Assembly (NCBI GenBank): GCA_937918935.1
Contig: CAKZSI010000036.1
Span: 1 to 64,000, forward strand
DNA from: an uncultured Chloroflexales bacterium
GTDB lineage: Bacteria; Chloroflexota; Chloroflexia; Chloroflexales; Chloroflexaceae
Direction: 5' to 3'
DNA length: 64,000 nt
Part shown: piece after piece, positions 715 through 61,000 of the stretch
Layout: the number at the start of each line of letters is the position of its first letter
Position numbering within the stretch: position 1 is the first letter of the stretch
Notes under the pieces: model-generated
Seen by the model: only the letters and a program-made list of their open reading frames with translations
Databases searched by the model: none
Told to the model about the DNA's origin: nothing
Translations under genes and position numbers: made by a program

Positions 715-1215
715 ATTGGGGGCGTGGGATCACCCGGTGGGTGGCCCCACGCCCCTGCTCTATGGGGACGCGGCCGGCGCGCCACCACTGCCTGCGGAAG
801 AGCGGGGAAACCAGGTTTCCCCGCGCCCCTCCTCGATGGGGACGCGGCCGGCGCCCCATCACTGCTTGCTGCAGGGCGGGGAAACCAGGTTTCCCCACGC
901 TCCTGCGCGATGGGGACGCGGCCGGCGCGCTGGCGTCGCTCCTGGGAGGACGGGGAAATCGGGTTTCCCCACACCCCTGCTCAATGGGGGTGAGGCTGGC
1001 GCCTCGGCACCGCTTGCGGCAGGGCGGGGAAACCAGGTTTCCCCACGCCCCTGCGCGATGAGGACGCGGCTGGCGCGCCACCGCTGCCTGCGGCAGGGCG
1101 GGGAAACCAGGTTTCCCCGCGCCCCTGCGCGATGGGAACGCGGCCGGCGCGCCACCGCTGCCCGCGGAAGAGCGGGGAAACCAGGGTTCCCTACGCCCCT
1201 GCCAGAGGGGTTCGG
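715..1215. repeat. Tandem array, 74-bp period, of GGGGAAACCAGGTTTCCCC palindromes
   Basis: Six 19-bp palindromes begin at 804, 878, 952, 1026, 1100 and 1174, each exactly 74 bases from the last; a degenerate seventh unit sits near 730. The 55 bases between palindromes are also conserved (a GGGGACGCGGCCGGCG core), so this is a tandem repeat and not repeat-plus-unique-spacer. The copies at 952 and 1174 carry point changes. Frames crossing the array give repetitive pseudo-peptides such as GKPGFPALP and are not genes. Confidence 0.95.
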
Positions 1216-20445: not shown

Positions 20446-20647
20446 TGGCGTTACCGTTGACTGTATAACTCTACTTTGCCAGTTTCCCCTGGCTGGAGTT
20501 ACACGGGCATGCAGCCTCCGAAGGTCATCCCGTCCTGATGCGGCGCGGCTTCGCCGCACCGAATCGGGAAGAGGAAAGCTCGGAGGAGCGTAGCCCCTCC
20601 GAACCTCCTCGCAGCGGAAACTGCCGCAAATGACAACGTAGAGATAA

Positions 20648-20712
20648 GAGCCTGACCGGATAACCGGGTTATCCGGTTATGTTCCAGGAGGGCTGCACCC
20701 TCCCCGACACTC
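20648..20712. repeat. Composite repeat element with a 23-bp perfect palindrome
   Basis: AGAGCCTG leads into the palindrome ACCGGATAACC-g-GGTTATCCGGT (20655-20677) and then a CCAGGAGGGCTGCACCCTCC hairpin. The same order of modules occurs at 25729-25787 and 50806-50865. The remaining bases of the 499-base gap (20446-20944) hold no gene; a palindrome-family copy lies near 20907. Confidence 0.75.
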
Positions 20713-20944
20713 CTATGGTACGGTATTGTACCGCCTCCGCGGGGCACATGCCAGCACGCCTTGAGCGTCGGCGGCGAATCTGGTACGATAGCCAGCATGG
20801 AACGCTCGGCGTCCTTCCACGGGCAGAGGTACGGGCAAACCCTATCTCCCCGATGCGCGTAACCTTGCAGATCGCGCTACAGGGTTTTTCTCACGGGCAG
20901 GGGCATGAGGAACCCGGTTTCCCCATATTCACACAGGGAGAGTC

Positions 20945-23036: not shown

Positions 23037-23126
23037 GCGCCTGTCGCTTCGCTGTCCCCGGGAACGCCGCAGCTTTCTGAACCATTCTGGTTCGGCAGGG
23101 CCAGGGAAAACCCGGTTTCCCTGTTC

Positions 23127-25787: not shown

Positions 25788-25917
25788 GACCCTCCCCTCT
25801 GGCAAGGGCGCGGGGAAATCTGGTTTCCCAAGCCTCCTCTGACCGAGCGAAGAACGAGGATTACCGGGAGGGCCTGGCCTTCTCAGAACCTCCCATCTGT
25901 GAGGGGCGCGTAAGCCC

Positions 25918-31348: not shown

Positions 31349-31488
31349 CTGGGAGGCGCAGAGAAACCCGCGTTCCCCGTCCTCCAACCGGCAGAGGAGG
31401 GGGAAAGCAGGTTTCCCCCTCCTCCAACCCGCCCCAACCGGCAGGGGCACGGGGAACCCTGGTTTCGCCGATCTTCGTATCAAGCATA

Positions 31489-55634: not shown

Positions 55635-56001
55635 GGGGAAACCCGCTTTCCCTACACTCCTGCCCGTGGGAAGACCGCGGGCGCGCCAGCGCCGGGGGGA
55701 AAGCGATGCAGAAACCCGCTTTCCCCACACCCCTGTTTGCCCACAACTGACGGAAACCCGCTTTCCCTACACTCCTGCCCGTGGGAAGACCGCGAGCGCG
55801 CCCGCGCCAGGGGGAAAGCGATGCGGAAACCCGTTTTCCCCACGGCCCCTGTTTGCCCACAACTGACGGAAACCCGGTTGCCCTCAGCCACTGCCCGTGG
55901 GAAGACCGCGGGCGCGCCCGCGCCAGGGGGAAAGCGATGCGGAAACCCGCTTTCCCCACGACCCCTGCTTGCCAAAGGCCGTGAGGAAACTCGGATTCCC
56001 C
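55635..56001. repeat. Second palindrome array with alternating 73/43-bp spacing
   Basis: Seven palindrome-family copies start at 55635, 55708, 55750, 55823, 55866, 55939 and 55983, so steps are 73, 42, 73, 43, 73 and 44 bases. A 115-117-bp higher-order unit is thus repeated three times (it holds CCCGTGGGAAGACCGCG and CTGTTTGCCCACAACTGACG modules). The array fills the convergent gap 55597-56065 between the putative anti-sigma and surface-protein genes. Confidence 0.93.
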
Positions 56002-59737: not shown

Positions 59738-61000
59738 ATGCGCATTAGAACCTGGACCATCACGCTCGTTTTCACCCTCAGCGTTCTCTTTGGCGGCGTC
59801 CGCGTCACGGCCCAGCCGCCGCAGCCGGGCGAAGCCCCCGCGCCCGATGCCACCCCTGTGGAGACCCTGCTCAACCCCGACGGCACCCTGCGGCTCGACG
59901 GCTCGTTCAGCGGCGCGCTCGACGCGAGCGGCTGGCAGGTGTCCCTCGACCCCGAGCGGGGGCCGATCTTCCAGCCCCAGGCCGGCGCGCCCCGGTGGAC
60001 CAATCTGGGGTCCGTGCCCAATGGCGCGCTCACCAATCCGGTCCGCGCCCTGGCGGTGAGCGGCAGCGACCTGTACGTGGGCGGCGACTTCCAGAATGCC
60101 GCGGGCATTCCCGAAGCCGACTACGTGGCCCGCTGGAACGGCAGCGCCTGGAGCGCCCTGGGCGGCAGCGGCGACGGCGCGCTCACCAATCCGGTCCGCG
60201 CCCTGGCGGTGAGCGGCAGCGACCTGTACGTGGGCGGGGCCTTCCAGAATGCCGCGGGCATCGCCGAAGCCGACTACGTGGCCCGCTGGAACGGGAGCAG
60301 TTGGAGCGCCCTGGGCGGCAGCGGCGACGGCGCGCTGACCAATCCGGTCCGCGCCCTGGCGGTGAGCGGCAACGACCTGTACGTGGGCGGCTACTTCCAG
60401 GATGCCGCGGGCATCGCCGAAGCCGACTACGTGGCCCGCTGGAACGGCAGCGTCTGGAGCGCCCTGGGCGGCAGCGGCGACGGCGCGCTCAACGGCTCGG
60501 TCTGGGCCCTGGCGGTGAGCGGCAACGACCTGTACGTGGGCGGCTACTTCCAGAATGCCGCGGGCATTCCCGAAGCCGACTACGTGGCCGCCTACGCTAC
60601 GCCGCCGTCGGTCAGCGCCATCACGCGCCTCGACCCCAACCCCGCCAGCGCCGCCAGTGTGCAGTTCCAGGTCGCCTTCGATGAGCCGGTTGTGGGCGTG
60701 GCTGCCAGCGACTTCACCCTGACGACCACCGGCGGCATCAGCGGGGCCGGCGTCACCGGCGTCAGCGGCAGCGGCGCGACCTACACGGTCACCGTCGCTA
60801 CCGGGACCGGGGACGGCACGCTGCGCCTCGATGTGCCCGCCGGGGCGACCATCGCCGACCTGGCCGGATTGAACGTGAGCAACCTGCCCTTCACCAGCGG
60901 GGAGGCGTACACCGTGAATAGGGGCGGGGGCAGCCCGACCCCCACCCCGCCCGGCGGGGGCGCGCAGGTCAGGGTCTACCTGCCGCTGGCGCAACGCTGA
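59738..61000 (+). CDS. Secreted tandem-repeat protein with Ig-like domain
   Basis: A 420-residue exported protein. Signal peptide: residues 1-27 (TLVFTLSVLFGGVRVTAQ). From about 95 to 285 there are four 51-residue repeats of the form LTNPVRALAVSGSDLYVGG, then FQNAAGIPEADYVARWNG, S-W-SALGGSGDG, resembling kelch/beta-propeller blades; they are almost identical also in DNA. Next is an Ig-like beta domain (about 290-395: VSAITRLDPNPASAASVQF, DFTLTTTGG) and a Pro/Thr linker ending in VYLPLAQR at the C-terminus, the secreted-protein motif also present in the CAP protein. AAAGGAAG precedes the ATG. A clear hairpin terminator follows. Four blades are too few for a closed propeller alone. Surface adhesion is a guess. 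Confidence 0.82.
   Translation: MRIRTWTITLVFTLSVLFGGVRVTAQPPQPGEAPAPDATPVETLLNPDGTLRLDGSFSGALDASGWQVSLDPERGPIFQPQAGAPRWTNLGSVPNGALTNPVRALAVSGSDLYVGGDFQNAAGIPEADYVARWNGSAWSALGGSGDGALTNPVRALAVSGSDLYVGGAFQNAAGIAEADYVARWNGSSWSALGGSGDGALTNPVRALAVSGNDLYVGGYFQDAAGIAEADYVARWNGSVWSALGGSGDGALNGSVWALAVSGNDLYVGGYFQNAAGIPEADYVAAYATPPSVSAITRLDPNPASAASVQFQVAFDEPVVGVAASDFTLTTTGGISGAGVTGVSGSGATYTVTVATGTGDGTLRLDVPAGATIADLAGLNVSNLPFTSGEAYTVNRGGGSPTPTPPGGGAQVRVYLPLAQR
60023..60590 (+). repeat. 153-bp tandem repeats inside the secreted protein gene
   Basis: Units start at 60023, 60176, 60329 and 60482 (GGCGCGCT marks each), exactly 153 bases apart and nearly identical, so they arose recently by unequal exchange or slippage. 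Confidence 0.93.

Follow-up and report, generated by a model that had tools for sequence, protein, structure and literature searches.

A 74-bp palindrome array in an uncultured Chloroflexales bacterium, probably a dispersed REP-like sequence amplified locally in tandem

Six 19-bp palindromes (GGGGAAACCNGGTTTCCCC) start at steps of exactly 74 bp (804, 878, 952, 1026, 1100 and 1174) in contig CAKZSI010000036.1 of an uncultured Chloroflexales bacterium, raising the question of whether so regular a layout marks phased sites for a protein or a repeat multiplied in place. Coordinates are those of the window, the whole 64,000-nucleotide stretch analysed, unless another locus is named. Both readings come from a first-pass annotation of this DNA, whose positions for the palindromes were borne out; its description of a perfect palindrome in each unit applies to four of the six (804-822, 878-896, 1026-1044 and 1100-1118), while 952-970 has one mismatch and 1174-1192 has two. 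TRF reported a tandem repeat at 745-1202 (period 74, 6.2 copies, 81% matches), and direct repeats with 74-bp spacing were also detected in the array; none of these features has a strand. The left end of the array (719-803) comprises a degraded half-palindrome, TCACCCGGTGGGTGGCCCC, and one full spacer, forming a seventh, degraded half-unit (approximately 730-803), and an inverted repeat (719-735/739-755) lies at the same end.

Mean column identity over the six units is 96% in the palindrome and 79% in the spacer; the DNA between palindromes is conserved, as had been claimed, but less so than the palindromes themselves. Pairwise, the spacers are 65-89% identical, that is 11-35% different, and no indel separates the six units. 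Spacers so alike are not unique, which rules out CRISPR, a distinction that the annotation had also drawn. One unit with two palindromes, folded as DNA, gave z = -5.4. A coding array was also rejected, since a 74-bp unit is not divisible by three and no gene was predicted there.

The array sits between two co-directional genes, both on the minus strand. The upstream gene (1240-2451), which has no Pfam family, ends in a stop codon some 50 bp from the right end of the array; its orthologue, whole or in pieces, was found in three of four congeners and served as an anchor for locating the orthologous site. The partial downstream gene (1-417) encodes a 4Fe-4S dicluster protein, and its conserved leader (approximately 560-715) borders the left end of the array. 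Searches found no tRNA or tmRNA and no Rfam family at gathering thresholds; a lax Rfam search gave sub-threshold matches only, mostly to eukaryotic microRNA families. Terminator and promoter scans over 400-1300 found none.

The palindrome is far from confined to this locus. The whole window contains 29 matches to GGGGAAACCNGGTTTCCCC at up to three mismatches, against 0.01 expected by chance; 23 of these lie outside the 745-1202 array, including five in a second array built from this palindrome family (55637-55973, no strand; TRF period 116 bp, 2.9 copies). The whole genome (4.6 Mb in 85 contigs; here G000, with G001-G004 for four other species of the genus) has 959 such places, the reversed-pattern control giving 0, and 718 at up to two mismatches. 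Genes were predicted with a simple home-made codon-usage finder, on which their boundaries depend; coding sequence makes up about 80% of the DNA, yet only 2 of 196 copies in G000 (829 kb sampled) and 0 of 160 in G004 (270 kb) fall within predicted genes. A short palindrome (19 bp) at high copy and an extragenic location are both marks of REP sequences. Nearly all half-sites in G000 (232 of 240) lie within palindromes, leaving 8 outside in 829 kb; this rarity indicates that the unit is the whole palindrome, and it rules out a DNA uptake sequence. The usual left flank is GGCAGGGGCGT, and variants such as GGGGAACCCNGGGTTCCCC recur. The palindromes are weakly biased to the sense strand of flanking genes (68 vs 43 in G000, 51 vs 30 in G004, clustered copies included). 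Tags were sought within 12 nt: GTAG accompanies 12 of 194 palindromes (control 7) and CGTC none, which excludes the tagged REP superfamilies. GGGGAAACCNGGTTTCCCC is a dispersed extragenic palindrome, REP-like and untagged.

Other repeats occur in the window. A second dispersed repeat of approximately 180-250 bp (20463-20713) matches G003 at about 30 places with 75-88% identity, and a 153-bp tandem repeat (60023-60589; 3.7 copies, 92% matches) possibly lies within a protein, 153 being a multiple of three. Further palindromes, GGAGGGC...GCCCTCC and GCAACCC...GGGTTGC, occur between genes in this genus (23104-23122 and 25812-25830, with the orthologous sites in G002-G004), and palindromes seem to take each other's place at orthologous sites.

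Changes in the palindrome are matched on the opposite arm more often than expected. Among 317 sites, one per cluster, 39 arm-pair changes are compensated where 13.7 would be expected of independent arms, most commonly at arm pairs 5 and 7, which suggests that the symmetry of the sequence is maintained. Descent of subfamilies can add to this count, given recurring variants such as the one above, and either selection on the hairpin or hairpin-templated repair would yield compensated arms.

Draft MAGs were used for all genome comparisons. At up to two mismatches the four congeners have 15, 438, 726 and 2458 copies of the palindrome, and genomes elsewhere in the family mostly 0-20, with one at 220; the family is expanded in this genus. 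The orthologous gap was found with flanking genes as anchors, and each comparison spans what the relative in question and the window have in common. Where this genome has six palindromes, G003 has one (L009, 677-695) and G002 (L052) and G004 (L011) have none; as a feature kept among relatives the phased array did not hold up, being reduced to one unit or absent. The first-pass annotation had named random unit lengths or absence of the array in related strains, together with lack of protein binding, as evidence against its protein-site reading, and the unit counts and periods in relatives, variable or with no array, supply the genomic half of this. A second locus (31400-31469, up to four mismatches) has three palindromes here and five in G003, with a single decayed trace in G002. 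Between this genome and its nearest relative the flanks differ by about 10%, less than the 11-35% among array spacers, so the array may predate their split, and units may have been lost from G003 rather than gained here. Nine presence/absence comparisons were searched for a clean insertion with target duplication, and none was convincing.

Other arrays in the genus keep the palindrome, while their spacers and periods are specific to the locus (approximately 44, 69, 70, 83 and 54+69 bp). Runs in G000 have steps of 70, 70 and 70 (L108) or 121, 134 and 124 (L106), one in G002 has 44, 44 and 38, and G004 has 10-copy runs with steps of about 68-69 or alternating 54/69 and another run at 82-84; array periods at other loci thus range from 38 to approximately 134 bp. 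Read by eye and unscored, spacers are alike within a run and mostly unlike between runs, as expected of duplication in place. Outside the genus, a variant palindrome, GGGGGAACCCGGTTCCCCC, forms a 51-bp array in G007, and a genome of another genus of the same family (G026:C295:15563-16229) has well over 12 close copies of the variant GGGGAAACCGTGTTTCCCC with steps of 30, 45 and 76 bp.

From these comparisons we conclude that the array is probably a local tandem amplification of the dispersed REP-like extragenic palindrome. The suggestion of a minisatellite derived from a dispersed palindrome is supported by the 6, 1, 0 and 0 units at the orthologous site and by the locus-specific periods. The other suggestion, that steps of about seven helical turns place a dimeric protein on one face of the DNA as at nucleoid or partition sites, we consider very improbable, also with a regulatory protein in that place. 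It would account for steps that are exact and free of indels, for a near-perfect dyad at every site and for the better conservation of palindrome than spacer; indeed, six units without an indel despite spacer differences of 11-35% indicate a period better kept than a neutral minisatellite suggests. However, three congeners have a single copy or no array, and a range of 15 to 2458 copies within one genus is unlike a fixed architectural site. Nor is helical phasing significant at other loci: neighbouring palindromes elsewhere are 39 to 199 bp apart (limit applied, 200 bp), and 10.5-bp phasing in pooled first spacings was not significant (R 0.19, p 0.08).

Repeated self-insertion of a non-autonomous element, moved by some transposase, is an unlikely origin for the array. 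High, lineage-specific copy number and presence/absence differences between orthologous loci fit such an element, but insertion of the palindrome by itself would not explain why the spacers within an array share one sequence; moreover, the four copy-rich genomes have no Y1 transposase, and clean target duplications were not seen. Less improbable, though still unlikely, is a terminator or mRNA 3'-end stabiliser that serves the gene ending at 1240 and was multiplied to strengthen its effect. Such a role could coexist with an origin by tandem amplification. The hairpins are strong, the array lies just past a stop codon, and palindrome density in G000 is highest between convergent genes (2.31 per kb, against 0.79 between divergent genes), a trend that is weak in G004. 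Against it, the share of intergenic regions with a copy is similar for divergent and convergent pairs (29% and 29% in G000, 46% and 42% in G004), 400-1300 holds no terminator-like site, and a T-run stands beside only 5 of 175 and 5 of 122 palindromes, near background. An intrinsic terminator, a stem-loop with a T-run, was rejected on these last two counts. REPs favour unidirectional and convergent regions over divergent ones; on that comparison the density per kb points to convergent regions in G000, while the share of regions with a copy does not differ.

Amplification in place would have proceeded as follows. The starting material is observed: GGGGAAACCNGGTTTCCCC, mostly after GGCAGGGGCGT, occurs at hundreds of sites between genes and is expanded in the genus. 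Replication slippage or unequal recombination, aided by the hairpin, would then have turned two adjacent copies, or one copy and its flank, into a head-to-tail series in which each unit holds the palindrome and any DNA that happened to lie in between, and the 74-bp period would be the length of the local founding unit. The spacers have since diverged by substitution while the palindrome stays symmetrical, perhaps through selection on the hairpin or hairpin-templated repair. A present function, if there is one, would be that of a REP within a 3' untranslated region, forming RNA hairpins between two co-directional genes, and a REP-like effect on RNA stability or DNA topology is possible.

A GTAG or CGTC tag and a RAYT gene are hallmarks of the REPIN system and of most REP families described. 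Pseudomonas fluorescens SBW25 has hundreds of REPs, some in evenly spaced tandem arrays with 72- and 112-bp steps in which flanking DNA is repeated along with the REPs (PMC3116915). The present family likewise has hundreds of short extragenic palindromes with a subset in tandem arrays, but it lacks the tags, no RAYT gene was found, its palindromic core is symmetric about a single central base, and its neighbour spacing is far more varied. The Neisseria dRS3/NIME arrays (20-bp inverted-repeat units, ATTCCC-N8-GGGAAT, approximately 700 copies, with 30-160 bp repeats between; PMC3898611, PMC9778887) share the layout of clusters in intergenic arrays. Their sequence is unrelated, and dRS3 is a phage integration site, whereas a search of viral contigs found no copy of the exact palindrome described here. 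The GTAG-23 REPs of Thermomicrobium roseum are tagged and clustered in large blocks at few loci (PMC3733652); the present family is also clustered, but untagged and dispersed. Minisatellites or VNTRs likewise have head-to-tail units, a locus-specific period and unit numbers that vary between species, but here the unit includes a palindrome dispersed genome-wide. By this analogy the array works like the P. fluorescens REP and Neisseria dRS3/NIME arrays, and is not a tagged REP or REPIN. T. roseum is a species of Chloroflexota; a literature search on palindromic repeats in Chloroflexus and Chloroflexi found no paper.

The array is ordinary in kind, and the interesting part is the absent mobiliser. 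The search for one covered a single transposase family, Y1_Tnp (PF01797), by which RAYTs are recognised; none was found in G000, G002, G003 or G004, the copy-rich genomes, which speaks against a REPIN/RAYT system, and G001, with only 15 copies of the palindrome, has one partial match. It is conceivable, and we put it forward tentatively, that an untagged palindrome without a RAYT multiplied between genes within a single Chloroflexota genus, reaching up to 2458 copies, by another mobiliser or by hairpin-templated copying that also keeps the arms complementary. The REP-like repeats thereby gain a highly abundant palindrome family that seems to have no RAYT, and its range of 15 to 2458 copies among congeners offers a comparative test of how repeats of this kind propagate when no dedicated transposase is present. 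The array is also a caution on inferring helical phasing from a single locus, and it exemplifies the capacity of dispersed palindromes to seed minisatellites.
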